In this document: positions 2,496 to 38,871 of the stretch, piece after piece
How the letters are laid out: the number at the start of each line of letters is the position of its first letter
Position numbering within the stretch: position 1 is the stretch's first letter
IMG/VR virus record: IMGVR_UViG_3300022752_000161
Coordinates: 1-39,972 of that record
Strand: one strand, 5' to 3'
DNA: 39,972 bases
Source of the DNA: a virus
Program-made: the position numbers and the translations under genes
The notes under the pieces: generated by a model
The model's input: only the letters and a program-made list of their open reading frames with translations
The model's database searches: none
What the model was told of the DNA's origin: nothing

Positions 2496-2587
2496 TGAGT
2501 ATTATTCCGGTCTATGTCGAACCCGTCTTCCCTTCGATAGATCCGACAGAGATTTACGAAGATGACGAAGAAGAAGACGATGATTGA
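2495..2587 (+). CDS. 30-residue acidic mini-protein
   Basis: The frame starts at an ATG sharing one base with the previous stop (TGATG) and ends 26 bases inside the HNH gene. The product ends in an almost uninterrupted run of Asp/Glu (EDDEEEDDD), like acidic DNA-mimic tails, though it is too short to argue function. The overlap may only serve to couple translation to the nuclease gene. Confidence is limited by its length. Confidence 0.4.
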   Translation: MSIIPVYVEPVFPSIDPTEIYEDDEEEDDD

Positions 2588-2912
2588 TAAAAAAGTAGTC
2601 AGCCTAGTTAAAGAGCGGGCAGGGGGATACTGCGAGAAATGCGGACTCCCTGCCACCGACTCTATGGCGCTACACCACCGCAAGCTGCGCTCGCGGGGCG
2701 GCAAAGATACTCCGGCTAACTTGCTGGTAGTTCATCACTCTTGCCACAACTTAGGCACAGACTCGATCCACCTTAACCCGGAAAAAGCAGAAAACAAAGG
2801 CTGGATGTGTCCGGGCTGGAAGGATCCGGAAGATCATGTTTATGTAACGCCGGAAGGATCCTTTGCTTTATTAGACAATGAAGGTAATATCAAGATACTA
2901 GGGAAGGCGTAA
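2562..2912 (+). CDS. HNH endonuclease
   Basis: The 116-aa product has the HNH layout. A zinc-binding CEKC (24-27) precedes the catalytic segment ALHHRKLRSRGG (38-39 HH), then Asn near 53, then VVHHSCHN (HxxCH near 58-62). Such enzymes nick or cut DNA with one metal ion; in phages they act as homing nucleases or in packaging. A second ATG at 2580 is possible and would avoid most of the overlap with the acidic mini-protein. It sits just upstream of the single-stranded DNA-binding protein gene, away from the terminase, so recombination or host DNA attack are both possible roles. Confidence 0.85.
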   Translation: MTKKKTMIDKKVVSLVKERAGGYCEKCGLPATDSMALHHRKLRSRGGKDTPANLLVVHHSCHNLGTDSIHLNPEKAENKGWMCPGWKDPEDHVYVTPEGSFALLDNEGNIKILGKA

Positions 2913-2913
2913 A

Positions 2914-3276
2914 ATGAATATCTCAGTTAAAGGTAATGTTGGACAAGATCCGGAGTTCAAGGTAAGTAAGTCAGGCACACAGGTTTGCTCTTTCTCGCTG
3001 GCATACACACCACGCAAGAAGCAGGGTACTGAGTGGATAGACGGGGAAACAATGTGGTTTCGCGTAGTTCAGTTTGGCGATAAGGCTGAGCAGCTCGCGG
3101 ATCTAATTGCCAAAGGTGACGCGGTGATAGTAGTAGGATCTCTTTCGCAATCTACTTATCAAGCCAAAGACGGATCCGAAAAGACAAGTCTCGAAATATC
3201 GGCTACCGATGTAGGAGTATTGCCGAAAAGAACACAAAACATTAAAAGTAGCCGGAAGGAAGATGTGCCTTGGTAG
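2914..3276 (+). CDS. ssb: Single-stranded DNA-binding protein
   Basis: The 120-aa product begins MNISVKGNVGQDPEF and continues with the OB-fold pattern of bacterial SSB: TQVCSFSLAYTP, WFRVVQFGDKAEQLADLIAKGDAVIVVGSL and YQAKDGSEKTSLEISATDVG. A short linker leads to an acidic, aromatic tip, EDVPW, comparable to the DDIPF tip that recruits partner proteins. It coats single-stranded DNA in replication and recombination, fitting the Erf-like, RecB-like and RusA proteins at 35-39 kb. It overlaps the following HTH gene by seven bases. Confidence 0.92.
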   Translation: MNISVKGNVGQDPEFKVSKSGTQVCSFSLAYTPRKKQGTEWIDGETMWFRVVQFGDKAEQLADLIAKGDAVIVVGSLSQSTYQAKDGSEKTSLEISATDVGVLPKRTQNIKSSRKEDVPW

Positions 3277-3648: not shown

Positions 3649-4347
3649 ATGAACATTGAGAAGGTAGCGCTGGACTCGATCCGCGAATATCACAACAACC
3701 CACGCAAAGGCAACACCACGCTAATTGCCGAGTCACTTTTGACTTACGGGCAATATAAGCCAATAACAGTAAATAAAAGATCCGGAGAGATCCTTGCAGG
3801 TAATCACACCTACCGAGCTGCGAAAGAAATTGGCTGGTCCGAAATCGATGTTGTTTATGTTGATGTAGATGAGACTACTGCTGCCAAGATAGTAGCCATA
3901 GATAATCGTTCCGCAGATTTAGGTCAATATGATAATGAAAAATTAGCAGCTCTACTCGAAACTTTACCTGAGTTGGACGGATCCGGTTATACGCTGGATG
4001 AGTTTGACGCAATTATTGCCGAGATACAAGAACAAACTACTCCGGAGTTATCTAAGTCTGCTTTCTCTCAGGTAGAAGTAGGAGAAACGGGGCAGAGCGG
4101 AACCCGGTATATTGAGACGCTGGCTGCGTATGGCGAGCGTTACAATCAAAGAGCAACGCGTATGCTTATGGCGGACTTTCCGCCGGATATCTATGTGTGG
4201 CTTATTGATAAACTAATCCAAGTGCGAAACACGCATAGTTTAACAAGCAACGGGGATGCCATTGTAAAAATGGCTGAGATAATTTCAGGGGAGAGCGCGC
4301 CACATGAGTCAGATCAAAATAGCGGATCTACCGATACACCGAATTAA
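3649..4347 (+). CDS. ParB-like nuclease-domain protein (modification cassette)
   Basis: The 232-aa product has a ParB/sulfiredoxin-like N-terminal domain: an opening strand-helix with HNNPRKG (15-21), a GQYKPITVN strand, and GEILAGNHTYRAAKEIGW (46-63), the box corresponding to the ParB nucleotide-binding motif. Residues 70-90 (VDVDETTAAKIVAIDNR) continue the fold. The C-terminal half is not recognised. No ParA gene is near, so plasmid partition is unlikely. ParB-type domains recur beside TET/JBP oxygenases in phages, where they may bind or act on DNA. It overlaps the oxygenase gene by 44 bases. An upstream start at 3601 was rejected because it overlaps the previous gene. Confidence 0.82.
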   Translation: MNIEKVALDSIREYHNNPRKGNTTLIAESLLTYGQYKPITVNKRSGEILAGNHTYRAAKEIGWSEIDVVYVDVDETTAAKIVAIDNRSADLGQYDNEKLAALLETLPELDGSGYTLDEFDAIIAEIQEQTTPELSKSAFSQVEVGETGQSGTRYIETLAAYGERYNQRATRMLMADFPPDIYVWLIDKLIQVRNTHSLTSNGDAIVKMAEIISGESAPHESDQNSGSTDTPN

Positions 4348-5182
4348 GCGAGTTCTATCAGAAGAACAAGCAAGTGAGTTGGTAGGCACAGTAGTTCCTG
4401 ATTACGCGCCTAACTGCGAAGAAGCCGGTATATGGATCGATGACGATACCGAAGAGATTGTATTTGTCTATTTCCCTATGCCTGACGAAGTAAATATCTT
4501 GCGTAAAGCGGTTCTCAACATCAAGTATGGAGAGACTATTCGCCAATCAACCGGACTTAAAAATAAGTCACGCACTTTTGGTATGGCTCCAAGAAAGATC
4601 TATCAGAAGCGCGAGAGCTGCCGCCCTACTACGCTGGCACAAGAACAACCTATGGAACACGCGGTATTGGTTAAGTTCGCTGAAAAGTTTGCGGATATGT
4701 ATAAAGAATTTGCCCCACAATTATACGAAAACGACAAGAAAAACTTGGCTGATGCTGGACTCGATGATGAGTGGAGAATGACCGATGACGCGTTATGGAC
4801 TTCCGGCGTAGTCAATAAATCTTCGACTTTGCCTTATCACCGAGACGGCTTTAACTTTGCTACTTGGTCCGCTATGCCGGTGATCCGAAAGAATATGTCT
4901 GGCGGCTATCTAACACTTCCGGAATATAACTTTACTTGCTCATGCAGAGACGGGTGGGTGACTTTCTTTGCGGGATATAAGTATGTTCATGGCGTTACGC
5001 CTATGAGTCCAAAGACCAAAGACGCATACCGATACTCGGTAGTTTATTACGCCCTACGCGGCATGAAAGATTGCTTTACCTACGCAGTAGAAACTGCTAA
5101 AGCAAAAGAGCGCCGGACCGCTCGCGAAGATAAAATGGCGCAAATAATTAAAGGCGAAGCGGAAGCACCCGTATTTAGATAA
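4304..5182 (+). CDS. TET/JBP-like 2-oxoglutarate/Fe(II) DNA base oxygenase
   Basis: The 292-aa product has the double-stranded beta-helix signature in its C-terminal half. The iron-binding HxD is H179-R-D181 in LPYHRDGFNF. SGGYLTLPEYNF (199-210) follows, then the distal His H229 in YKYVHGVTPM, then the 2-oxoglutarate-binding Arg R243 in YRYSVVYYAL. The GG-L-LPE strand and HGV-TP arrangement resemble TET/JBP enzymes, which oxidise 5-methylcytosine or thymine in DNA to hydroxymethyl forms. The N-terminal 170 residues are unassigned. Neighbours (ParB-like, AADT-like, PLP enzyme, kinase) fit installation of a hydroxymethyl handle that is then decorated. The alternative is another 2OG oxygenase clade; the base specificity cannot be read from sequence. 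Confidence 0.78.
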   Translation: MSQIKIADLPIHRIKRVLSEEQASELVGTVVPDYAPNCEEAGIWIDDDTEEIVFVYFPMPDEVNILRKAVLNIKYGETIRQSTGLKNKSRTFGMAPRKIYQKRESCRPTTLAQEQPMEHAVLVKFAEKFADMYKEFAPQLYENDKKNLADAGLDDEWRMTDDALWTSGVVNKSSTLPYHRDGFNFATWSAMPVIRKNMSGGYLTLPEYNFTCSCRDGWVTFFAGYKYVHGVTPMSPKTKDAYRYSVVYYALRGMKDCFTYAVETAKAKERRTAREDKMAQIIKGEAEAPVFR

Positions 5183-5199
5183 CGCAGGGGGAAGGCAGC

Positions 5200-6255
5200 A
5201 TGAGTAATCTAAAGGAAGGCTTAGATTTCCGCCTACCGCAATACCGATACGATGTATTTCTTGATTTTTATGAGTTTCACTTAAAGTATCGCGCACATCC
5301 CGGTTGCGTCTATTACTTAATGCCCTATCTTCGGGATCGCTACGGCTGGAATAACGAAGCAGCTCTATGGTTTGCGTTCATCAACGGCAATACGCAGAAC
5401 CCGGTTACAAGCCTAATTCTACACCGGAGATTTCCGGATAAAGGTCAATGGTTGGATCTAGTTAAGTTCTATAAAGAAAACTATGAGCGGCTGGAGTTCG
5501 ACACCGATAGGCGCTATCACAAGAAGTCTATGCCCGCAGCAATAGAGAGCTATCTTTCGCTGGTTGGTCCGGACCAATGGGATTTCTATACTGCTACGGC
5601 GCAACGGGGCTTTGGGGCAATGTGGAAAGCTGCTACTTCGATCTCAACTTTTGGGCGCTTGTCGGCTTACTCCTATCTTGAATATGTGCGCATTATGGGT
5701 ATAGATTTCGATTGTGATGATTTAATGTTGGCAGATCGAGACGGCTCGCGCTCGCATAGGAACGGCTTATGTATCGTCAGCGGACTCGATCATTACGATT
5801 GGCACAAGAGCAACCCTACTTTTGACGGAAACTACCCGCCGGAGTTAATTGCTTCGCTCGAAACTATGGGCGAACAGATCCTTGCCGATATGAAAAAGCG
5901 AGCAGCTGGAAAGGATTACGAAAGAGATGTCTCTTATTTTACGCTGGAGTCGGCACTATGCACTTACAAGTCATGGCACCGACCCAACCGCCGATACCCC
6001 AATGTCTATAACGATATGTTATTCAATAGGATTAAAAAAAACGAAGCGGCTTGGCCGGAAGAAGATCTCTCGGTATTTTGGGAAGCGAGAAAGCATTACT
6101 TACCGGACTATCTCCGACTCGAAGATAACCCAAAAGATCTCGGACTCAACCCAAGAAAACAAAATCATTATCTCCTTACCGGTCAGGTAATAATGATGAA
6201 CCGCGATTACCCTTACTACAAGAATGAATACAACGATGAATACGATCTTTCCTGA
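5200..6255 (+). CDS. Putative amino acid:DNA transferase (aGPT-PPlase clade 2/3-like)
   Basis: The 351-aa all-helical product resembles the alpha-glutamyl/putrescinyl thymine pyrophosphorylase families, some of which are now shown to transfer amino acids onto phosphorylated hydroxymethyl-uracil in phage DNA. Visible landmarks are ALWFAFINGNTQNP (55-68), DTDRRYHK (101-108), TFGRLSAYSYLEY (150-162) and DRDGSRSHRNGL (179-190). These polar clusters probably line the active site. It has no membrane segment. It starts 18 bases after the oxygenase with GGGGGAAGG as ribosome site and overlaps the PLP-enzyme gene. The family call is by pattern memory; the kinase and oxygenase alongside support it strongly. 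Confidence 0.7.
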   Translation: MSNLKEGLDFRLPQYRYDVFLDFYEFHLKYRAHPGCVYYLMPYLRDRYGWNNEAALWFAFINGNTQNPVTSLILHRRFPDKGQWLDLVKFYKENYERLEFDTDRRYHKKSMPAAIESYLSLVGPDQWDFYTATAQRGFGAMWKAATSISTFGRLSAYSYLEYVRIMGIDFDCDDLMLADRDGSRSHRNGLCIVSGLDHYDWHKSNPTFDGNYPPELIASLETMGEQILADMKKRAAGKDYERDVSYFTLESALCTYKSWHRPNRRYPNVYNDMLFNRIKKNEAAWPEEDLSVFWEARKHYLPDYLRLEDNPKDLGLNPRKQNHYLLTGQVIMMNRDYPYYKNEYNDEYDLS

Positions 6256-7285
6256 ACAGACCATAGAACGCTCAATAATGCGGTGGGAAGATTACACATA
6301 CACTCTTACGCCATTTGAGCAACATCAAGGCTTATGGTGGAAGCGAGAAGATCACTTCGCCCCGCTCGGATACGGCGGACCAAACGGAAGCAAGCTGCGC
6401 CAATTATTATTTCTAATAGATCAATATGTGGCAAAAGGTGGCAACGCTGGACTAATCACGGGCGCAAGTGTTTTATCTCCGCAGCTCTCGATGAGCGCAT
6501 TGGTATCTAAGCATTACGGACTCACGCCTACGCTGATACTTGGAGCGACTAAGCCGGAAACGGCTATCAAGCACGAAAATGTTTATATTGCCGCCGCAGC
6601 TGGAGCAGAGTTTATTTATACGCCCGTAGGCTATAACCCGGCTTTACAACGCGCAGTAAAGCAACACTCAGAGTCCGAGCGCTACAAAGATCATTACCGC
6701 TTGTGCTACGGAATTACGACACCGGAAGACGCTGCTGATGACGATATCCGAGCGTTTCACGAAGTAGGTGCGTATCAAGTCAAGAACCTGCCGCCACACA
6801 TCACCACGCTAGGTATGACGGCGGGTTCGTGTAACTCTTGCGTATCGGTGCTATATGGAATTGCTAAGTATCGCCCCGCAGACTTAGAGCGCGTTATTTT
6901 GTTTGGTATCGGTCCTACCCGGCTCAACTTTATTGAAGAAAGATTACGCAGGATCGAGAACGCCACAGGCATAGCCATACTGGATCTATTTCGCCGCAAA
7001 TATCATCATCACCGAGATCTCGAAGCAGAACATCAGACCGGTGGAGAGATCTTGATAGAGCATTACGATCTTCACCACACTAAGTTCTCCGGCTATCAGG
7101 ACAAAATGCCTTACGAGCTGAGAGACAAGTCAATATCGTTCCACCCAACTTACGAAGGAAAGGCACTTACTTATATGGATCGCAATAGGGGAATGTTTGA
7201 GTGGTATCACGAACCTGACGGGAAAGCAGCATTTTGGATCGTAGGTAGCCAACCCAACCGGGAGATAGTCGAGCGAGCGTTATGA
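6224..7285 (+). CDS. PLP-dependent fold-type-II enzyme of the modification cassette
   Basis: The product (353 aa, or 349 from the ATG at 6236) looks like the tryptophan-synthase-beta / ACC-deaminase / D-cysteine-desulfhydrase superfamily. KREDHFAPLGYGG leads to NGSKLRQLLFL, whose Lys (residue 57, or 53 from the second ATG) should form the Schiff base with PLP. GLITGASVLSPQLSMSALVS matches the Rossmann-like segment after it. TAGSCNSCVS occupies the place of the glycine-rich phosphate-binding loop. In thymidine hypermodification pathways, PLP enzymes remodel the amino acid attached to the base, for example by decarboxylation. This fold would more naturally catalyse elimination or replacement at C-beta, so the chemistry may differ. 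It overlaps the kinase gene by four bases. Confidence 0.8.
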   Translation: MNTTMNTIFPEQTIERSIMRWEDYTYTLTPFEQHQGLWWKREDHFAPLGYGGPNGSKLRQLLFLIDQYVAKGGNAGLITGASVLSPQLSMSALVSKHYGLTPTLILGATKPETAIKHENVYIAAAAGAEFIYTPVGYNPALQRAVKQHSESERYKDHYRLCYGITTPEDAADDDIRAFHEVGAYQVKNLPPHITTLGMTAGSCNSCVSVLYGIAKYRPADLERVILFGIGPTRLNFIEERLRRIENATGIAILDLFRRKYHHHRDLEAEHQTGGEILIEHYDLHHTKFSGYQDKMPYELRDKSISFHPTYEGKALTYMDRNRGMFEWYHEPDGKAAFWIVGSQPNREIVERAL

Positions 7286-7818
7286 AGACTATTTACCTAA
7301 TCGGCGCACCGGGATCCGGCAAAACAACTCTTACCGAAGCCTTTACTCGGAACTGGATCGAAGTAGCCAAGCACGATGATCCGGTTAAGTGGCGAGAACA
7401 TCAGACTCCCTACGGAACGGCTATTTCGCTGGGCTGGCTGCGCCCTACCTTTGGGGGAACCGACACATTGGGAAATGCCGCGATACTGGAGATTGAGCCT
7501 TGGTATCCGACAATAAATCATGACATTGTGTATGGAGAAGGTGACCGCTTAGCCAATAAGCGCTTTTTTGATCTAGCAATTATGTATGGAGAGTTCCATT
7601 TGTTTTACCTAGATACTCACCCGGACAGAGCTGCGCAACGGCGAAAAGCAAGAGCTGCGATTACTGGTAAAGAGCAGAACCCGTCATGGGTCAAGGGTCG
7701 AGAGACCAAGCACCGTAATTTAGCAATCGAATACAACGCAACATTTATTCCTGATGCCTTGACTCCGGATGAAGGCGCAAGCATAATTCGCGAAGTAGTA
7801 TTTCCTACATTACAGTAA
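7282..7818 (+). CDS. P-loop kinase, probable hydroxymethyl-pyrimidine DNA kinase
   Basis: The 178-aa product begins with a beta-strand and a perfect Walker A, GAPGSGKTT (8-16). RPTFGGTDTLGNAAI is a segment seen in phage P-loop proteins of this type. DIVYGEGDRLANKRFFD follows, then a strand plus LDTHPDRAAQRRKAR, which looks like a lid/arginine region. In known hypermodification systems, a kinase phosphorylates the hydroxymethyl base in DNA to make the leaving group for the amino acid transferase. The context here fits that role. Alternatives are a deoxynucleotide kinase or generic small-molecule kinase. It is ATGA-coupled to the PLP gene and only five bases separate it from the terminase small subunit. 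Confidence 0.75.
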   Translation: MKTIYLIGAPGSGKTTLTEAFTRNWIEVAKHDDPVKWREHQTPYGTAISLGWLRPTFGGTDTLGNAAILEIEPWYPTINHDIVYGEGDRLANKRFFDLAIMYGEFHLFYLDTHPDRAAQRRKARAAITGKEQNPSWVKGRETKHRNLAIEYNATFIPDALTPDEGASIIREVVFPTLQ

Positions 7819-7822
7819 ATAC

Positions 7823-8314
7823 ATGGCAGGAAAAAAACAGCGTAAAGTGCCGGATCCGGACATTATTGATCGCGAACTCGCAGTAGTCGAGTTACGCAGA
7901 ACAGGGGAAACTTGGGATCGAATAGCGAAGGTAGTTGGCTACGCGAACGCAGCAGGGGCATACAAGGCTTACAAGCGCGCTTTATTGCGGACCCTACAAC
8001 AACCTACGGAAGAAATGCGGGATCTCGAATTAGACCGGCTGGACCGGCTACAAAGGGCATACTGGAAGCGAGCCATAGACGGGGAGACGCGAGCTGCGGA
8101 TTTTATCTTGAGAGTAATAGATCGCCGCGCCAAGATCTTGGGCTTAGACGCTCCGCAGAAGATACAAGCGGAAGTGGTGAATTATGACGGAAGCAGCAAC
8201 ATTGACTCCGATATCGAACGAATTATCCGATTACTCGACCAAGTGGATTCGAGCCGCCCGCTACAAGTGGAGAGCGGAATTAGCGAGAGCGGAACAATTA
8301 CCGCCGGAGAGTGA
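7823..8314 (+). CDS. terS: Terminase small subunit
   Basis: The 163-aa product has an N-terminal helix-turn-helix-like part (ELRRTGETWDRIAKVVGY) and a long oligomerisation helix (RDLELDRLDRLQRAYWKRA), as in actinophage TerS proteins, which recognise phage DNA and stimulate TerL. It starts five bases after the kinase gene with no obvious Shine-Dalgarno, suggesting translation depends on ribosomes finishing the modification genes. Its last 131 bases also encode the start of the large subunit in another frame. Confidence 0.85.
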   Translation: MAGKKQRKVPDPDIIDRELAVVELRRTGETWDRIAKVVGYANAAGAYKAYKRALLRTLQQPTEEMRDLELDRLDRLQRAYWKRAIDGETRAADFILRVIDRRAKILGLDAPQKIQAEVVNYDGSSNIDSDIERIIRLLDQVDSSRPLQVESGISESGTITAGE

Positions 8315-9563
8315 TTGGCACATTTGGCTTTATATGGCTGGGCGCGGCGCTGGGAAGACTCGAACGGCGGCTGAGTGGCTGGCATGGGAAGCAATAAAAC
8401 AACCCGGAACGCGGTGGGCAATAGTTGCGCCTACCTTCTCTGACGCAAGAGATACCTGCGCCGAAGGAGAGTCAGGCGTAATCTCGATCTTGCGTAGATA
8501 CAGAATGCTGAGCAGCTGGAACCGATCTATCGGAGAGATCTTATTGCGTAATGGATCTAGGATAAAGTTATTCTCAGCAGATCAGCCGGATCGCTTTCGC
8601 GGTCCGCAACATCATGGCGCTTGGTGTGATGAGTTAGCGGCATATAGATATTCAGACGCTTGGGATCAATTACAATTTGGATTACGCTTAGGCGATAAGC
8701 CGCGCATTATCGTTACTACTACCCCGCGCCCTACCCCGTTAATCCGAGCGCTCGCCAACCGCGATGACGGCTCAGTAGTAATCACTCGCGGATCTACTTT
8801 CGATAACGCGGCTAACTTAGCACCTAGCGCGTTGCTGGAGTTACAGGCACGATACAACAATACCCGGCTAGGTCGGCAGGAATTATACGGAGAGATCCTT
8901 GAAGATGTAGAAGGCGCGTTATGGACTAAGGGCTTAATAGATCGAAATAGACTAAATAAAGCACCAAGTTTGGCACGAATTGTTGTATCCATAGATCCGG
9001 CAGTAACGAATACCAAAGACTCTGACGAAACCGGAATAATCGTGTGCGGATCTGACGCAGCTGGACATGGCTACCTACTAGGAGATTACTCATTTCGGGG
9101 ATCGCCGCTTGATTGGGCTTCGAAGGCAGTATCGGTGTTTGATGAGTTTAAGGCTGACTCGATCCTAGTAGAAGTTAATCAAGGTGGAGATATGGTTACG
9201 AGCGTTCTCCAACAGATCCGGCTGGGCTTACCGATCCGCGAAGTGCGAGCGCATGTTGGTAAAAGACTCCGAGCTGAGCCGATAGCAGCCATGTATGAGC
9301 AGGGGCGTATTCACCACATTGGCGAGTTTGCGCAGCTAGAAGATCAAATGACTCTCTGGACTCCGGAAGAAGTTAATTCACCGGATCGCCTTGACGCTAT
9401 GGTTCAAGGTTTTGCGGATCTTCTTGGTACTATTAATGTTGCGAATTACTTTGGAGCGCTCGCTAATTTCTGCCGAAAATGCGGATTACCTATGCCGAAA
9501 TCAATGAGCCATTGTAGTAAGTGCGGAACGGCTATGATAGCGCCGGATAGTAAAGGAGTATAA
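8184..9563 (+). CDS. terL: Terminase large subunit with C-terminal zinc ribbon
   Basis: The 459-aa product has the packaging ATPase motifs GRGAGKT (Walker A, 53-59) and GAWCDE (Walker B plus catalytic Glu, 145-150), and TTTPRP (178-183) as the coupling segment. The RNase-H-like nuclease has D271 in VSIDPAVTN and D404 in DRLDAMV. Residues 430-447 carry CRKC and CSKC, a zinc-ribbon tail that many TerL proteins lack. It threads DNA into proheads and cuts concatemers. The 131-base overlap with TerS is unusual, but the overlapping residues WRAELARAEQLPPESDW look like genuine TerL sequence. Confidence 0.95.
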   Translation: MTEAATLTPISNELSDYSTKWIRAARYKWRAELARAEQLPPESDWHIWLYMAGRGAGKTRTAAEWLAWEAIKQPGTRWAIVAPTFSDARDTCAEGESGVISILRRYRMLSSWNRSIGEILLRNGSRIKLFSADQPDRFRGPQHHGAWCDELAAYRYSDAWDQLQFGLRLGDKPRIIVTTTPRPTPLIRALANRDDGSVVITRGSTFDNAANLAPSALLELQARYNNTRLGRQELYGEILEDVEGALWTKGLIDRNRLNKAPSLARIVVSIDPAVTNTKDSDETGIIVCGSDAAGHGYLLGDYSFRGSPLDWASKAVSVFDEFKADSILVEVNQGGDMVTSVLQQIRLGLPIREVRAHVGKRLRAEPIAAMYEQGRIHHIGEFAQLEDQMTLWTPEEVNSPDRLDAMVQGFADLLGTINVANYFGALANFCRKCGLPMPKSMSHCSKCGTAMIAPDSKGV

Positions 9564-33119: not shown

Positions 33120-33349
33120 ACGATAGAGAAGATCAATACGGCAGCGCGGCAGTTAATTTTGCTCAGGCTGGTCGCGGCTGGGGCGCTATTTTAGGTATAG
33201 ACGATATCCCGGCATATAAAGTTGCGTTAATGCTGGATTTCTTCAAAAGTATTCGCTGCGTAGCCAACCCTGCTCACGAAGATAGTTGGTTAGATAAACT
33301 GGGCTATACCCGTCATGGCATGGATATAGCGTTATCTGATGAGCCTTGA
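33095..33349 (+). CDS. DUF6378-like protein
   Basis: The 84-aa product matches the pattern of phage DUF6378 proteins: EILNDREDQYGS near the start, KVALMLDFFKSIRCVANP in the middle and DSWLDKLGYTRHG near the end. These helical, MazG/dUTPase-sized proteins are of unknown function and sit in nucleotide or DNA metabolism clusters. A second ATG two codons downstream is possible. It overlaps the next gene by 11 bases. Confidence 0.75.
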   Translation: MSMLQEILNDREDQYGSAAVNFAQAGRGWGAILGIDDIPAYKVALMLDFFKSIRCVANPAHEDSWLDKLGYTRHGMDIALSDEP

Positions 33350-34373
33350 AAAACGACTTAACGATATGCCGGAAGGCATTGACTCTGAGAATGTCGCAGA
33401 GCTGCGCCAAGCCTTACTCCGGCTACAAAAGCAATTAAAGAGATCTAAAGAGCGCACCGAAGATCTAGTAGAAATTACTCAGCAAGCTGCGTATGACGCG
33501 ATGCTGACTATGGGCAAGATCCTACCGGTACCGGAAGTCGTACCGGATAAAAGAAAAACAAAAGCCGAAGCAGCTCTATGGCACATGACGGATTGGCAGG
33601 GAGCCAAGCGCACCGTATCTTACAACTCAGAAATCATGCGCAAAAGAGTTATGGAGTTTGCGGCGAAAGCAGTTCGTATTACTGATATTCAGCGAGCAGA
33701 TCACCCGGTAAAAACTTGTCACATTTTATTTGGTGGAGATATGGTAGAAGGCTTATTTAATTTTCCTACGCAAGCGTTCGAAGTCGATGCGACATTATTT
33801 GAGCAGTATGTCCAAGTCTCCCGGTTATGCGTAGATGTGGTCCGGTTTGCGCTCGCTAACTATGAGCAAGTCACAGTAATCCCGGAGTGGGGTAATCATG
33901 GGCGTATAGGATCTAAGCGAGACAATGTGCCGAGATCCGACAACTTTGACCGGATGTGCTATGAGTTAGCGCGGCAGCTCTTGGCTGGAGAAAAGCGATT
34001 AACTTGGCTGGACTGCCCGGAAGATGTTCAACGCGTAGAAATAGGAGCCTATCGAGCGCTTCTTATTCACGGAGACGAAGTAGGTAGAAATGGATTTGCT
34101 TCACCGGGCGCAATAGTCCAACACATGAACCGGTGGAGATCCGGTTCGTATCCTTGGGAGTTCCGGGATGTGTATGTTGGGCATTACCATACTCACGCTG
34201 AGTGGCCTATGGCTAACGGCTTAGGATCTGTTTACCAAACCGGCTCAACAGAGTCAGATAATCGCTATGCCGGCGTAATGCTAGCTGCGAGCGCTACCCC
34301 GTCTCAACGATTACACTTCGTAGATCCCATTAAAGGCAGGGTAACGGCGGTGTATAAAGTATGGTTAGACTAG
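33339..34373 (+). CDS. Calcineurin-like metallophosphoesterase
   Basis: The 344-aa product has an N-terminal coiled coil (about residues 18-55) and the five metal-binding blocks of the family: WHMTDWQ (81-87), GGDMVEG (132-138), GNHGR (185-189), HGDE (244-247) and GHYHTH (281-286). Family members are nucleases or phosphatases; phage versions are often suspected of acting on DNA or nucleotides. The position among recombination genes fits a DNA role. It overlaps the next gene by 13 bases. Confidence 0.85.
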   Translation: MSLEKRLNDMPEGIDSENVAELRQALLRLQKQLKRSKERTEDLVEITQQAAYDAMLTMGKILPVPEVVPDKRKTKAEAALWHMTDWQGAKRTVSYNSEIMRKRVMEFAAKAVRITDIQRADHPVKTCHILFGGDMVEGLFNFPTQAFEVDATLFEQYVQVSRLCVDVVRFALANYEQVTVIPEWGNHGRIGSKRDNVPRSDNFDRMCYELARQLLAGEKRLTWLDCPEDVQRVEIGAYRALLIHGDEVGRNGFASPGAIVQHMNRWRSGSYPWEFRDVYVGHYHTHAEWPMANGLGSVYQTGSTESDNRYAGVMLAASATPSQRLHFVDPIKGRVTAVYKVWLD

Positions 34374-35050
34374 ATAGGCTACTTACTCAAAATAGCGAGC
34401 TGCGCCCTGACGGGATCTATAATTGGTCTATTCCGGCGCTCGCCGCTAAGTTATCCAACGGGAAAAATATAAAGACTTGCCCTAACGCTGGAGCGTGTGC
34501 CAATGTCTGCTACGCCCGAAACGGCACTTACAACTTTAGTAATGTAAAAGCGCGGCATACCGCTAACTTAGAGTATGTAATTGATGATCCGCAGGGCTGG
34601 TTTGCGCAGATGCTAGAAGAAGTCAATCACCCGCGTATGCGCGGTAAGTATGTCCGGATCCACGACTCAGGGGATTTTTTTTCGGAAGACTACTTGCGCT
34701 TATGGCTAAAGATAGCTCTCTTGACTCCGGATGTAACTTTCTATTGCTACACTAAGGAAGTCTCAATGTTCAAGCGCATAGTTGAATACGATTGCCCCAA
34801 GAACTTCCGCTATCTCTACTCGCTAGGCGGCAGGGAAGATTACTTAATTGATCTCGAACTGGACCGGCATGCCGATGTGTTTCCCGATGACGCAGCAATA
34901 CTGGAAGCCGGTTACTCTAATCAAGATGCTTCGGATCTATTGGCAATAACCTTGACTTCTAACAAGATAGGCATACCGCAAAACAACATTCCGCAGTTTC
35001 GAAAGCGGTTGGCTGGTCGGACTTTTGGACAAGTTCAAAAGGAACGCTAG
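34361..35050 (+). CDS. Gp88-like (DUF7227-type) Cys-motif protein
   Basis: The 229-aa product matches a widespread actinophage family (mycobacteriophage gene 88-like). The N-terminal TCPNAGACANVCYARNGTY has cysteines 40, 46 and 50 (C-x5-C-x3-C), suited to a metal or Fe-S cluster. YVRIHDSGDFFS (97-108) and FYCYTKEV (127-134) follow. Function is not established. The cysteine set recalls radical-SAM-type clusters but is spaced differently, so I make no enzymatic claim. Its 3' end faces the only minus-strand gene. Confidence 0.8.
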   Translation: MVRLDRLLTQNSELRPDGIYNWSIPALAAKLSNGKNIKTCPNAGACANVCYARNGTYNFSNVKARHTANLEYVIDDPQGWFAQMLEEVNHPRMRGKYVRIHDSGDFFSEDYLRLWLKIALLTPDVTFYCYTKEVSMFKRIVEYDCPKNFRYLYSLGGREDYLIDLELDRHADVFPDDAAILEAGYSNQDASDLLAITLTSNKIGIPQNNIPQFRKRLAGRTFGQVQKER

Positions 35051-35126
35051 ATCAGCTCGCTTGCGTCAATGGAGTCATCAGCGCTATACGGATGTTCCTG
35101 AGCGCATTTCCCGCATTGTAAGCACA

Positions 35127-35336
35127 TTAATCTTCTTCTTCGTCAAATTCAAAGTCGGAGTCGCGTATGTCGATGCCGGCTTCTTTAGCGGTGTGGAGCG
35201 CACCTGCCATAAGCATCATCGCTCGATTACACATATCCGTTAATTGATCCGGGTAAGTCGGATCCGCAGAGATCTCTATTTGTAAATTGTAAAGAACAAG
35301 CCAAACTCTTGCTTGATGTGATTTTGACTCAGGCAT
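35127..35336 (-). CDS. Only minus-strand gene: small acidic protein
   Basis: The 69-aa product starts MPESKSHQARVWLVLYNLQI, has a predicted helix with CNRAMMLMAGALHTAKEAG and ends in a strongly acidic tail, SDFEFDEEED. The start at 35336 has GGGGG five bases upstream on the minus strand. The N-terminal extension to 35369 adds basic residues without a better ribosome site. It converges on the Gp88-like gene and diverges from the annealing-protein gene. Acidic tails of this kind can mimic DNA or bind host proteins. A plus-strand frame across it (35025-35243) is less convincing. Confidence 0.65.
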   Translation of the reverse strand: MPESKSHQARVWLVLYNLQIEISADPTYPDQLTDMCNRAMMLMAGALHTAKEAGIDIRDSDFEFDEEED

Positions 35337-35471
35337 ATTTACCCCCAACCGGTTTCTAAAGGTTACCAAAAGTTACTTCGCGACTCGCCAAGCGAAATCC
35401 GGCAAAACCGTAATGTATCAGCGACAATAGACGCGCTGGGGCAGATCGCCCCTTATAGGAAGGAATAAATT
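35337..35471. promoter_or_regulatory. Divergent intergenic region with small hairpin
   Basis: This 135-base gap lies between divergently read genes and so should hold promoters for both. I could not identify convincing -35/-10 pairs. Visible elements are the palindrome AACCGGTT (35347-35354), a five-pair hairpin GGGGC/GCCCC (35438-35452) and the ribosome site AGGAAGGAA before 35472. Confidence 0.4.
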
Positions 35472-36035
35472 ATGGCTAAGTTCGATTTAGACTCGTACGA
35501 AACCGTAGAAAGCCGCTTGGCTCGATTTTGGAAAGATCACCCAAAGGGCAGGGTTTTGACGGATCTAGTATTTCATGATGAGCGCAGGTTCATTGTCAAG
35601 GCAGAGATTTTTTTTGATAGAGATGATTTAAGCCCGGTGTCTTCCGGTTATGCCGAAGAGATCGTAGGAGCGTCTCCCGTCAATAGGGTCAGCGCCCTAG
35701 AAAATGGAGAGACTTCCGCAATAGGGCGCGCGTTAGCCAACTGCAATTACGCGTCTCAGGGTAAGCGCCCTAGCCGCGAAGAAATGGAAAAGGTCGAGCG
35801 CTATAACGCCGAACCCCGTAAAGCAGTTGCGCCGAAGAAGACCGAAGTAAAAGAATACTCTCAGGCAGACAAAGATCTCGCAGCAGCTCTGATTGTAAGC
35901 GTGGAAGCAGTTAAAGACATTGAAGAATTAAAAAAGATTTGGGCAGAAAACCCGGATCTACGCGATATTCAAATTGATAACACAACTCTAAAAGACGCAG
36001 TCACCAACAAGAAAAAAGAACTTGAAGCAATATGA
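35472..36035 (+). CDS. Erf/RecT-like single-strand annealing protein
   Basis: The 187-aa product has SYETVESRLARFWKDHPKGR at the start and GYAEEIVGASPVNRVSALE followed by ETSAIGRALAN (80-90), the conserved block of Erf/Sak-type annealing proteins in actinophages. The C-terminal third is a Lys/Glu-rich helical region. It would pair single strands during recombination-dependent replication, together with SSB, the RecB-like nuclease and RusA. Single-strand binding without annealing activity is the main alternative. Confidence 0.72.
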   Translation: MAKFDLDSYETVESRLARFWKDHPKGRVLTDLVFHDERRFIVKAEIFFDRDDLSPVSSGYAEEIVGASPVNRVSALENGETSAIGRALANCNYASQGKRPSREEMEKVERYNAEPRKAVAPKKTEVKEYSQADKDLAAALIVSVEAVKDIEELKKIWAENPDLRDIQIDNTTLKDAVTNKKKELEAI

Positions 36036-36349
36036 GATCGCTGGACCGAAATACAGTTATTTTATCCGCGAAGGCTCAACGCACTTCGCGAGCTGCGGGG
36101 GAAAAAGTATTACCCCGAACTGGATCTTTACGCCGAAAGGTGTATGAGTATCTAGTAACACAAGGATTTCGTGGGGCAACGGATCAAGAAATTGAAACGG
36201 CGCTAGGAATAGACGGCAATACTGTCCGACCTACTCGCGGAACTTTATTCAAAGACGGCTACATTATCGATAGCGGAACTACCCGAAATAACGCTAACGG
36301 AAACTCTTGTATTGTATGGCGCGTGGCTCAGGAAGGAATGCTCTTATGA
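36032..36349 (+). CDS. Winged-helix DNA-binding protein
   Basis: The 105-aa product contains SLRRKVYEYLVTQGFRGATD followed by QEIETALGIDGNTVRPTRGT, a typical helix-turn-helix with wing (LFKDGYIIDSG and VWRV). It resembles small phage or Actinobacteria winged-helix proteins used in regulation or at replication forks. It is ATGA-coupled on both sides. Confidence 0.75.
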   Translation: MRSLDRNTVILSAKAQRTSRAAGEKVLPRTGSLRRKVYEYLVTQGFRGATDQEIETALGIDGNTVRPTRGTLFKDGYIIDSGTTRNNANGNSCIVWRVAQEGMLL

Positions 36350-36609
36350 GTAAGCAAAAAAAGTTTGAACCGCCTATGGGCTGGATTGTAGGCGTTAATC
36401 ATCAGCAGGTAGCGATAACTCGATTAGCCCAAGAGTTAAAGATGAGTCCGATAGAAGTAGGGCAAGCGCTGGAGCGCGCCGGTTATTTTCTTCAACCGGA
36501 CATTATGGATCTAGCTGCGGACTCATGGAAAGTATTGCGGATCGAGTTGGATAAAGCGAGCAATAACACTTTGTTGAAAATAGTGAAGAAAGAAGGCGCT
36601 GATGAGTGA
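36346..36609 (+). CDS. Small helical hypothetical protein
   Basis: The 87-aa product has VAITRLAQELKMSPIEVGQAL, which could be a helix-turn-helix-like element, within a mostly helical protein. ATG 36346 overlaps the preceding stop and was preferred to the longer frame from 36307, which runs antithetically through the winged-helix gene. It overlaps the next gene by eight bases. No family was recognised. Confidence 0.65.
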   Translation: MSKQKKFEPPMGWIVGVNHQQVAITRLAQELKMSPIEVGQALERAGYFLQPDIMDLAADSWKVLRIELDKASNNTLLKIVKKEGADE

Positions 36610-36964
36610 AACAATAGTCACGCCACAGATGATTGAGAAGCGGCTAAAGGATCTATCGAAAGAAGTAGATATTTCGCATAGAGATCTAGCAGACGCAGAG
36701 AAGTTCTACTATGAGACAAAAGCACAATACGAGTTAGCGCTCGCTCATGCTCGATTATCGGTGGCTACTAACAAGGAAGCAAAATACACAGTAAGCGATA
36801 AAGCGGATCTAGCCTTAATTTCTACCGAGAAATTACATTTACAAATGGCTACTGCGGAAGCGGTGGTTCGCGCAGCTCGCGCAAACTCAAATCGCATACG
36901 GACTCAGGTAGATATTGCCCGGTCCATAGGCACAAGCGTCAGAACAAGTATGGAAATAGTTTGA
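36602..36964 (+). CDS. Coiled-coil hypothetical protein
   Basis: The 120-aa product is almost entirely helical and charged, with a long predicted coil (LADAEKFYYETKAQYELALA). It is of a type common in phage recombination clusters, between the annealing protein and a RecB-like nuclease, and could be a partner of one of them. The stop shares one base with the next start. No catalytic residues were seen. Confidence 0.7.
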   Translation: MSETIVTPQMIEKRLKDLSKEVDISHRDLADAEKFYYETKAQYELALAHARLSVATNKEAKYTVSDKADLALISTEKLHLQMATAEAVVRAARANSNRIRTQVDIARSIGTSVRTSMEIV

Positions 36965-37098
36965 TGATTAAAGTCCGTAATCCCTTTTATCGAACACAAT
37001 CATCAATTACTTGCGTATCTTGCTTTCATTGCGCCAAAGTGTTTGAAATACACATTAAAAATATACGAGCAATTAATTATTGCGGGGAGTGCAAATGA
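36964..37098 (+). CDS. 44-residue zinc-finger-like mini-protein
   Basis: The product has CVSCFHC in the middle and CGEC near the end, an arrangement that can bind one zinc ion. It exactly fills the space between the coiled-coil gene and the RecB-like gene, sharing one base with the first and four with the second (ATGA), which supports it being a gene. It is AT-rich. No family was recognised. Confidence 0.65.
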   Translation: MIKVRNPFYRTQSSITCVSCFHCAKVFEIHIKNIRAINYCGECK

Positions 37099-37763
37099 TA
37101 GATCTACAAGAATTACTAACTAAATCGCTGGTAGCACACGATAGCCAACGGGATCGCAGTAAGCAGGTTGAGATAGGTCCAAGTTCGTTAGGCGGTTGCC
37201 GCCGGCGTGTTTATCATGAGTTAATAGAAACACCGCACACTAATCAAACCGAGAAGTTAGCGGCGATCTTAGGCACTTTTATTCACTCCGGTATCGAAAG
37301 CGTTATGGAACGCGAAGATCCCTTCGGAGATAACTACCTACGCGAAATAGAAGTAACCTACGGCGGTATGAAGGGTCATGTTGATCTTTATATCAAGAGC
37401 GAAGGCGCGGTTATTGACTGGAAGACAAAGAAGAAAGCCGGCTTGCGGTATTTCCCTAGTCACTCGGAGATATGGCAGGTTCAGACTTACGGCTATCTAT
37501 TAGACGCTAACGGCTATGAAGTAAAAACAGTATCGCTGGTCGCTATTCCGCGTGACGGCGAAATGGCAGACATCAAGGTTCATACCGAAGACTATAACCC
37601 GGAAGTAGCGAAAGCAGCTCTATCTTGGTTACAGGAACTTAAAGATATTGTGGCGGGCGCTGGACCTGCTCCGGATCCGGAAGAGAAAGTAGTATTCTGT
37701 TCTAAGTATTGCTCCTTCTATGATCCGAGCGGAGAAATAGGGTGTCCGAGTACCGCGAAGTAA
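37095..37763 (+). CDS. Cas4/RecB-like PD-(D/E)XK exonuclease
   Basis: The 222-aa product has the RecB-family nuclease motifs: H64 in GTFIHSGIE, D97 in GHVDLYI, the D108-W-K110 catalytic pair in AVIDWKTKKK, and QVQTYGYLL (128-136). One Cys at 35 (GGCRRR) and three near the C-terminus (202, 206, 217) match the 4Fe-4S pattern of Cas4 and AddB-type nucleases. It would resect DNA ends for the Erf-like annealing protein. It is not near a CRISPR array. It overlaps the WhiB gene by 22 bases. Confidence 0.87.
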   Translation: MIDLQELLTKSLVAHDSQRDRSKQVEIGPSSLGGCRRRVYHELIETPHTNQTEKLAAILGTFIHSGIESVMEREDPFGDNYLREIEVTYGGMKGHVDLYIKSEGAVIDWKTKKKAGLRYFPSHSEIWQVQTYGYLLDANGYEVKTVSLVAIPRDGEMADIKVHTEDYNPEVAKAALSWLQELKDIVAGAGPAPDPEEKVVFCSKYCSFYDPSGEIGCPSTAK

Positions 37764-38068
37764 ATTGGGAAGCGGCTGAGTGCCGCGACCTATATACCGA
37801 TCTTTTCTATTCAGTAGAAGAAGAACGGAACGCAAGTGCGTATAACAATATCAACGCCTTGCGCTCGGTGTGTTCCCGGTGTCCGATATGGAAGGCTTGC
37901 TTAACTTATGCGTTTGAGAACGAAAGTTACGGCGTATGGGGCGGATTAACTTCCGTAGAACGGCAAGCCTTCCGACACCCGGAGAAATATCCGCAGCAAC
38001 GGCAGCGAGCGCTAAAGGCTCTTGTTGAAACAGGAATTACATTGACTCAGATTAGGGAGTGTCTATGA
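37742..38068 (+). CDS. whiB: WhiB-family Fe-S transcription regulator
   Basis: The 108-aa product has the four cluster cysteines of WhiB proteins, C14 in AECRDL, C44, C47 and C53 in VCSRCPIWKAC, and the GVWGG turn (64-68) followed by a basic helix region. WhiB proteins bind a 4Fe-4S cluster and the main sigma factor; they occur in actinobacteria and their phages. The phage copy may steer host transcription. The GTG start at 37742 lies inside the nuclease gene; an ATGA overlap joins it to the next. Confidence 0.93.
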   Translation: MSEYREVNWEAAECRDLYTDLFYSVEEERNASAYNNINALRSVCSRCPIWKACLTYAFENESYGVWGGLTSVERQAFRHPEKYPQQRQRALKALVETGITLTQIRECL

Positions 38069-38871
38069 GTATTCGGCTTATGTCGGATGTGTGGAAGGCG
38101 GATCTCCCTACTACCGAGAAAATGGTTTTGTTGGTTATAGCCGATCACGCCAACGATGAAGGAACGGAAGCATGGCCTAGTCAAGCCACCATAGCCAAGA
38201 AGGCTTCTATAAGTGTGCGCACAGTTCAAAGAGCGGTCAATTCGCTGGTCCGCGCTGGATACTTGCGTATGGAAAAACATGCTGGGGGATCCGCAAGCTG
38301 CCGCGATGATCGCAGACCGCACCGATACACAATTAACTTAAGAAGACTACGGGGCGGCAATACGACTACCCGTAATCTACGACACGACTTAGAAGACGAT
38401 AACGACACGACTTCTACGCCCGTCACGGAGCGACTTTCACGCCCTAAGAAACATCCTTTAGATCCACCCAAAGAAACACCCGGTTTTGTTGATTTCTGGA
38501 CTATTTACCCAAAGAAGGTAGCAAAGAAGGCTGCGCTCCAAGCATACGAGAAGGCAATCAAAGAAACCGATCCGGCGGTTATCTTGGCTGGAGCGCGGCG
38601 GTATGCGCAAGATCCTAACCGCCACCCGTCATATACGGCTAATGCGGCTACTTGGCTCAATGCCGAACGCTGGTTAGACGAACCGCTACCGGACCGAGAG
38701 TTATCTATTGAAGAAAAGCGTGAGATCGAGCGGAAAGAAAGCGAGCGCCGGCGGCAGCTGGAGCGAGAAGCCTATGATAAGTGGCAAGCCGAACTACTAG
38801 AAGCGCAAAGTAAGGCTACGCCTATGCCCGAAAACTTCAAAGAAGAGCTGAGAAAACTGTTGCGTAAGTAA
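38065..38871 (+). CDS. Replication initiator / replisome-organiser-like protein
   Basis: The 268-aa product has an N-terminal winged helix (MSDVWKADLPTTEKMVLLV, then WPSQATIAKKASISVRTVQR) as in phage replication proteins that bind the origin. A Ser/Thr/Pro linker leads to a second helical domain (FVDFWTIYPKKVAKKAAL, ATWLNAERWLDE), the DnaD/DnaT-like part that loads host helicase. The C-terminus is a charged coiled coil. The ATG at 38065 overlaps the WhiB stop. A promoter lies at its 3' end. Confidence 0.82.
   Translation: MSIRLMSDVWKADLPTTEKMVLLVIADHANDEGTEAWPSQATIAKKASISVRTVQRAVNSLVRAGYLRMEKHAGGSASCRDDRRPHRYTINLRRLRGGNTTTRNLRHDLEDDNDTTSTPVTERLSRPKKHPLDPPKETPGFVDFWTIYPKKVAKKAALQAYEKAIKETDPAVILAGARRYAQDPNRHPSYTANAATWLNAERWLDEPLPDRELSIEEKREIERKESERRRQLEREAYDKWQAELLEAQSKATPMPENFKEELRKLLRK

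Follow-up and report, generated by a model that had tools for sequence, protein, structure and literature searches.

Introduction

In phages ViI and M6, 5-hydroxymethyldeoxyuridine (5-hmdU) is presumably formed before polymerization, by way of a deoxyuridine monophosphate (dUMP) hydroxymethylase, and tailoring in M6 involves a radical S-adenosylmethionine enzyme. For ViI, Lee et al. reportedly found in 2018 and 2022 that serine is the donor amino acid and that the pyridoxal phosphate (PLP) enzyme catalyzes a decarboxylation; the 2022 work is also said to describe combinatorial permutations in viral metagenomes, and Iyer et al. reportedly predicted TET/JBP operons in 2013. Here, we examine a five-gene cassette at positions 3649-7818 of a viral DNA stretch of 39,972 bases (IMG/VR record IMGVR_UViG_3300022752_000161, hereafter the window), in which a TET/JBP-family oxygenase stands ahead of an amino acid:DNA transferase (AADT), a PLP enzyme and a kinase. 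We consider it likely that this is a post-replicative thymine-hypermodification cassette with a ViI-type back end.

The T positions of ViI DNA have been estimated as 43% 5-(2-aminoethoxy)methyl-dU (5-NeOmdU; [M+H]+ 302.1), 7% 5-hmdU and 50% T (PMC6449724), and PP35 ORF169 has been named as the PLP enzyme among 5-hmdU transformation genes (PMC6336734). A five-gene, TET-led thymidine hypermodification set has been annotated in Rhodococcus phage Tonitrus (PMC11955845). TET-led cassettes are already known, and what sets the window apart is a ViI-type tail end behind a different first step. A literature search of limited coverage, which says little, found no publication that pairs TET with ViI-type AADT and PLP enzymes.

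Results

The five genes and their families

The cassette comprises five plus-strand open reading frames (Table 1), with overlaps of 44 bases between the ParB-like and TET genes, 32 bases between AADT and PLP, and 4 bases between PLP and kinase; a gap of 17 bases separates TET from AADT. The original prediction had named these families as adjacent, overlapping genes, and the coordinates, order, strand and family matches all agreed with it. The ParB-like protein matched ParB_N (PF02195, E 2.8e-7, 30.9 bits against a Pfam cut-off of 26.3) and phrog_723 of PHROGs (5e-45). The oxygenase matched Tet_JBP (PF12851, E 2.1e-10, 40.5 bits against a curated cut-off of 34.9), and its presumed catalytic residues lay exactly where they had been placed; H179, D181, H229 and R243 were invariant in all seven TET sequences aligned, the window's included. 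It is 48% identical to Tonitrus gp3, annotated as a Tet-like J-binding protein, and a search of Protein Data Bank (PDB) sequences returned only Tet-like dioxygenases, at E 0.19 and 0.26. The label queuine tRNA-ribosyltransferase, attached to phrog_6059 and repeated in many phage records, was considered for this protein and rejected; it is contradicted by the Tet_JBP match and the active-site residues, and is probably a mislabel.

The 5200-6255 protein matched the ADDT family (PF18724, E 1.9e-18, 67.5 bits against a curated cut-off of 26.2), so that neither it nor the oxygenase clustered with unrelated families, the outcome the original prediction had named as damaging. Its structure model (predicted local distance difference test score, pLDDT, 88.9) matched the 5-phosphomethyl-dU glycinyltransferase of PaMx11 (8z2n; Z 17.7, root-mean-square deviation 3.3, 254 residues), far above the next-best matches, which were DNA glycosylases with Z of at most 9.2. 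The predicted activity, exchange of the phosphate for an amino acid, is supported by this fold. With the single sequence as query, PDB sequences gave only unrelated proteins, at E 0.29 or worse; a profile of window-type AADTs found 25qc, an AADT-domain protein (1.9e-5), and 8z2m (0.004).

The same profile separated the known AADTs. It matched those of Prince, Montesquieu and ViI (Vi01_199, 7e-37), and neither M6_51 nor PaMx11_46 was matched at E<=10. A profile of cluster C0, the other AADT of this phage clade, gave the opposite result, matching Tonitrus, M6_51 (9e-17) and PaMx11_46 (9e-9), and weakly Montesquieu (4e-6) and Prince (1e-4), with no match to Vi01_199. An AADT tree reproduced the split between ViI and M6/PaMx11 with support of 100/100, although M6 sits on a very long branch, long branches meet there and its placement is unsure; the profile result is independent of the tree. 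Direct comparison of M6_51 with the AADT of the window showed weak similarity (blastp E 0.08).

The PLP enzyme had no Pfam match at E<=1, the PALP family (PF00291) included, and matched phrog_3650 at 1.2e-92. Its model (pLDDT 87.7) resembles D-cysteine desulfhydrase and 1-aminocyclopropane-1-carboxylate (ACC) deaminase (4d8t, E 6e-10), and both the fold-type-II fold and an invariant K57 are present; among PDB sequences, 1rqx alone was found, at E 0.043. Over residues 7-352, nearly its full length, it is 38% identical to Vi01_182 of ViI (E 6e-76). The PLP profile matched PP35 orf169 (3e-95), Vi01_182 (7e-94), Vincenzo (2e-55) and Montesquieu (6e-48). M6_52 was not matched by the profile (hhalign probability 10%), and was weakly similar in direct comparison (blastp E 0.002 over 186 columns). 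Together, the AADT and PLP profile matches and the AADT tree indicate a back end of the ViI type in the window.

The original prediction had also taken the fold-type-II enzyme as a sign of an unusual gene set and a possibly undescribed base. We abandoned this argument, since the PLP enzymes of both ViI and M6 are PALP-like as well: M6 gp52 scores 39.5 bits, above the PF00291 cut-off of 35, and Vi01_182 scores 30.7 bits, below it. Because the window's AADT and PLP enzyme are specific relatives of those of ViI, an undescribed base is no longer the best guess, and the base made is probably one already known. Kinship with ViI supports decarboxylation as the predicted activity of the PLP enzyme.

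Alternatively, the same pathway might use another donor amino acid or another PLP reaction, such as elimination or transamination, and yield an undescribed base. The AADT is merely 31% identical to Vi01_199 and 44% identical to that of mycobacteriophage Prince, which together with other mycobacteriophages holds the nearest AADTs in named phages. No decarboxylase is named among the 50 solved structures listed as closest to the model of the PLP enzyme, the nearest being the desulfhydrase and deaminase noted above. Still, both proteins fall on the ViI side, the PLP enzyme over nearly its full length, and we regard this alternative as unlikely.

Table 1. Features of the cassette, its terminase neighbors and two kinases of described phages (window positions unless a locus is given).
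Feature	Position	Strand	Remarks
ParB-like protein	3649..4347	+	232 aa from ATG 3649; alternative TTG start 3601 possible
TET/JBP 2-oxoglutarate/Fe(II) oxygenase	4304..5182	+	292 aa; predicted thymine-methyl hydroxylase in DNA
HxD iron ligands H179-R180-D181 of TET/JBP	4838..4846	+	role predicted from family
H229 of TET/JBP	4988-4990	+	role predicted from family
R243 of TET/JBP, presumed 2-oxoglutarate-binding	5030-5032	+	role predicted from family
AADT	5200..6255	+	351 aa; predicted: amino acid displaces phosphate of 5-phosphomethyl-dU
Fold-type-II PLP enzyme	6224..7285	+	353 aa; predicted decarboxylase of DNA-bound amino acid
K57 of PLP enzyme (NGSKLRQ), presumed Schiff-base lysine	6392..6394	+	role predicted from family
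P-loop nucleotide kinase	7282..7818	+	178 aa; predicted to phosphorylate 5-hydroxymethyl-dU in DNA
Walker A GAPGSGKT of kinase	7303-7326	+	seen in the sequence
Helix-turn-helix-like protein, probable small terminase	7823..8314	+	from position and conservation beside the large terminase (TerL); helix-turn-helix match below cut-off; outside pathway
Large terminase (neighbor)	8184..9563	+	PF03237 2e-25, PF17289 1.5e-12
Vi01_061c	L006:38203-38865		PF18748 member annotated "terminase small subunit"
M6 gp54	L123:31686-32249		PF18748 member annotated "terminase small subunit"

TET and thymidylate-synthase-family genes in related records

The two possible front ends were distributed in a mutually exclusive manner. 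Among 22 virus records examined, whose completeness is unstated, none of the 19 that showed TET had a match to the thymidylate-synthase family (PF00303), and this includes the window over its 39,972 bases. PF00303 was present in L041 and L042, both without TET; L032, which starts inside AADT and so cannot show TET, had no PF00303 match. Nine IMG/VR records carrying AADT and PLP genes without TET all had PF00303 (9/9), and Tet_JBP was matched in 0/9. In phages already described, PF00303 was present and Tet_JBP not matched in Montesquieu, ViI and M6; PF00303 had no match in Tonitrus and Prince, whose Tet_JBP matches (E 8e-10 and 5e-8) stay below the cut-off, and in Vincenzo neither family was matched. 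The simplest reading of these sequences is that TET and dUMP hydroxymethylase would be alternative routes to 5-hmdU, and the exclusion is the strongest evidence here for a TET that acts on thymine. The counts include near-copies (L038/L039, L040/L041), and divergent TETs could be missed, because even those of Tonitrus and Prince scored beneath the Tet_JBP cut-off. Tet_JBP had no match in 14 control genomes, so they provide no independent check of the reach of the search, and PF00303 by itself does not separate a dUMP hydroxymethylase from a thymidylate synthase.

A missing phage DNA polymerase was considered as a mark of TET phages and rejected, since in this sample it does not distinguish one front end from the other: none of the 22 records matched polymerase family A, B or C, the two PF00303 records included, these two having one family-B candidate each that fell short of the limit. 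Genes at 33339-38871 of the window match exonucleases and replication initiators, some with lambda-O-like PHROGs.

Comparison with described phages

Among the nearest described pathways is the 5-NeOmdU pathway of Salmonella phage ViI (Vi01) and its Ackermannviridae relatives. The window has direct relatives of the AADT and PLP enzyme of ViI, but ViI differs in having the PF00303 gene without Tet_JBP, kinases of families PF18748 and PF18747, scattered modification genes and its own DNA polymerase. The window thus shares the AADT/PLP branch of the ViI pathway and neither its front end nor its kinases. In the combination of ParB, TET, AADT and kinase without PF00303, it fits the TET-led type of Tonitrus and Prince. 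Tonitrus shares ParB, the Tet-like protein, AADT and kinase (39% identical) with the window, but its AADT is of the M6/PaMx11 branch, and no PLP match was found within the 16 kb examined. Mycobacterium phage Prince and its relatives have ParB, TET (44%), AADT and kinase (38-39%) just before the terminase, and Prince has no PLP gene within the 8.8 kb examined. Glutamicibacter phage Montesquieu has adjacent AADT, PLP and kinase genes (40%, 30% and 25% identical), in its case with a thymidylate synthase/hydroxymethylase gene in place of a Tet_JBP match. Pseudomonas phages M6 and PaMx11 share the AADT family and fold, and M6 also a PALP-type PLP enzyme, but their AADTs belong to the other branch; both carry thymidylate-synthase-family genes (PaMx11 by annotation), and PaMx11 has genes for a flavin adenine dinucleotide (FAD) oxidoreductase and an acetyltransferase.

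The window cassette lies directly before the terminase genes, 4 bases separating the kinase from the small-terminase-like gene. Just upstream (2562-3276) are genes for an HNH endonuclease and a single-stranded DNA-binding protein.

Conservation of the cassette and exchange of genes behind ParB-TET

Two IMG/VR scans with single proteins, which reach close relatives only, were used: the PLP query yielded 33 loci, and for the TET query the best 80 of 106 relatives were retained. The 96 TET loci considered below include three isolate loci and the window's own, and three pairs represent contigs counted twice (L010/L044, L014/L043, L011/L090). The order TET-AADT-PLP-kinase was present at 17 loci, which come from 14 different IMG/VR contigs other than the window; PLP identities were 56-97%. 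ParB was seen upstream in 13 of the 14; in one contig TET is truncated by the end of the sequence and ParB is out of view, and in another ParB itself is truncated. Because the same four-gene order recurs in 14 other contigs, the cassette is far beyond chance. More broadly, ParB lay no more than 0.8 kb upstream of TET, mostly overlapping or adjacent, in all 79 loci with at least 700 bases of upstream sequence (17 more were too short to score), and it may be a partner or targeting factor for TET.

The slot behind ParB-TET was much less constant. We defined it as the genes between TET and the kinase or terminase, with approximate labels from clusters of open reading frames and tblastn. The C0-type AADT with an FAD enzyme and kinase accounted for 21 of the 96 loci (L056 and L057 being placed here from the FAD gene alone), and AADT with PLP and kinase for 17; two further loci of this class are truncated, and the locus of the window is one of these. 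Genes of clusters C6 and/or C5 without kinase occupied 14 loci, cluster C4 (TAGT-like) without kinase 13, C0-type AADT with kinase 9, kinase alone 8 (one of these, L105, has 0.9 kb before the kinase without a named enzyme) and C8 five. AADT with kinase but without PLP was found once, in Prince; a C0-type AADT was cut in three loci, and three were not assigned. The nameable genes that follow TET in relatives are other tailoring enzymes. The slot FAD protein matched DAO (6.5e-12) and PaMx11 gp47 (2e-8). Searches of Pfam and PHROGs with one representative each of C5 (~148 aa), C6 (~308 aa) and C8 (~324 aa) gave nothing at E<=0.01; by eye, C6 and C8 could be read as glycosyltransferases and C5 as HAD-like. 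One locus (L107:5181-6266) has, in the slot after AADT, a second oxygenase resembling Asp/Arg beta-hydroxylases (PF05118, 1.1e-7).

A TET tree of 78 rows requires 21 changes of slot label, compared with a minimum of 7 and a shuffled mean of 47.0, and a TerL tree of 57 rows requires 18 (minimum 6, shuffled 37.2). Both trees were made by a quick method, with identical and short rows dropped and cut and unassigned loci left uncounted. Tailoring genes have therefore been swapped repeatedly behind a constant ParB-TET, partly following lineage.

Kinase family, cytosine modification and palindrome use

Several observations speak against a thymine pathway with a ViI-type back end. The first concerns the kinase, which matched Ploopntkinase3 (PF18751, E 1.6e-29, 103.2 bits against a Pfam cut-off of 27) and lies outside HMUDK (PF18748), to which the 5-hmdU DNA kinases of ViI and M6 belong. 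The 25 strongest of its 26 Pfam matches include neither PF18748 nor PF18747, the family of a further ViI kinase, and PDB sequences gave no match at E<=0.1. Since PF18751 differs from the family of ViI and M6, phosphorylation of 5-hmdU is predicted here from position and family. The window kinase also matches phrog_800, labeled "terminase small subunit". We rejected this annotation, which is probably wrong, since Vi01_061c and M6 gp54 are labeled alike and match PF18748.

The second concerns the partnership of the modules. Prince has an AADT without an adjoining PLP gene, which means that the donor need not be serine, and Vincenzo has a PLP relative and kinase without window-type AADT, TET or PF00303, so that these proteins can occur without the rest; taken together, the two phages indicate that the modules are not obligatory partners. 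In Mycobacterium phage Vincenzo (L009:1-3152), a ParB-like N-terminus is joined to a DNA methylase domain whose match is weak and below the cut-off, and this fusion is followed by the PLP relative and a PF18751 kinase.

The third concerns the substrate. Burke et al. reportedly described in 2021 phage TETs coupled to 5-methylcytosine (5mC) methylases and TET-associated glycosyltransferases, and the window oxygenase might act on 5mC, with the cassette making a cytosine derivative. The C4 slot genes are in keeping with this: two members match TAGT at 2.6e-4 and 9e-6, both below the curated cut-off, and for one of the two, carried by a relative, there is also a match to a hydroxymethylcytosine glucosyltransferase PHROG (4e-7), which leans toward cytosine in that phage. 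A C5-methylase match was present in 4 of the 22 records, including a partial one (2.5e-8) in L033, which has the five-gene set. Some relatives may therefore work on cytosine. For the window, however, no C5-methylase match was found, as in 18 of the 22 records overall, the solved relative of its AADT is a 5-phosphomethyl-dU transferase, and TET stands in for a thymidylate-synthase-family gene. We downgraded 5mC accordingly and regard it as a very unlikely substrate.

Finally, palindrome counts in the window did not favor replacement of every T. ACGT was absent (0 seen, 65 expected from 3-mer counts), GTAC (30 seen, 151 expected) and TGCA (29 and 146) were depleted, and AGCT was also scarce. The T-free GGCC was scarce too (8 and 106), and GATC was in excess (342 and 232). 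Relatives avoid partly different sets of palindromes, with T-containing sites among them. Lasting avoidance of T-containing palindromes is weak evidence against blanket T replacement; partial or site-specific modification, or avoidance of old date, would fit. With T-containing sites avoided in both window and relatives, we downgraded these counts as a test of modification. Persistent avoidance would also suit a decayed or moonlighting gene set in phages whose DNA is no longer modified, but the five frames are open, the catalytic residues of TET, PLP enzyme and kinase are intact, and the set is kept in 14 contigs, all of which makes decay extremely improbable.

The host is hinted at by TET relatives. 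A contig of 32 kb that was binned with an Actinomycetota metagenome-assembled genome carries a TET 96% identical to that of the window, and 84 of 92 phage records with related TETs are from phages of Mycobacterium, Microbacterium, Arthrobacter, Gordonia or Rhodococcus. This is no more than a hint.

Discussion

Homology and context support the original prediction of a base-hypermodification cassette that starts from an oxygenase, and homology supports the order it proposed, namely oxidation, phosphorylation, displacement by an amino acid and remodeling by PLP chemistry. We think it very likely that the cassette hypermodifies T in this order, and we infer the following steps. The TET/JBP enzyme, with the ParB-like protein as its putative partner, would hydroxylate the 5-methyl group of T in replicated phage DNA to give 5-hydroxymethyl-dU, taking the place of the dUMP-hydroxymethylase route of ViI and M6. 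The P-loop kinase would convert this to 5-phosphomethyl-dU, and AADT would exchange the phosphate for an amino acid, most likely serine, as reportedly in ViI. The PLP enzyme would then decarboxylate the adduct, most likely to 5-NeOmdU, which we favor as the product with modest confidence. Sites modified in this way would be protected from host nucleases.

A bolder idea, possible but doubtful, is that ParB-TET hydroxylates thymine at selected sites of completed, ordinary DNA and is served by swappable tailoring modules (ViI-type, glycine/FAD-type, glycosyltransferases, or kinase alone). The window's version would place an aminoalkyl thymine, possibly undescribed, at chosen sites only, and would need neither a modified nucleotide pool nor a phage DNA polymerase.

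If the thymine pathway with a ViI-type back end is correct, a 4.2-kb gene set for four enzymes and a ParB partner could turn T of ordinary duplex DNA into an amine-bearing base, which would be a useful tool for DNA labeling. It would also mean that the first step to the same hypermodification can be taken interchangeably by dUMP hydroxymethylase or TET. The relatives would then constitute natural experiments in which one front end is combined with at least six downstream configurations, several of them with a predictable product mass.

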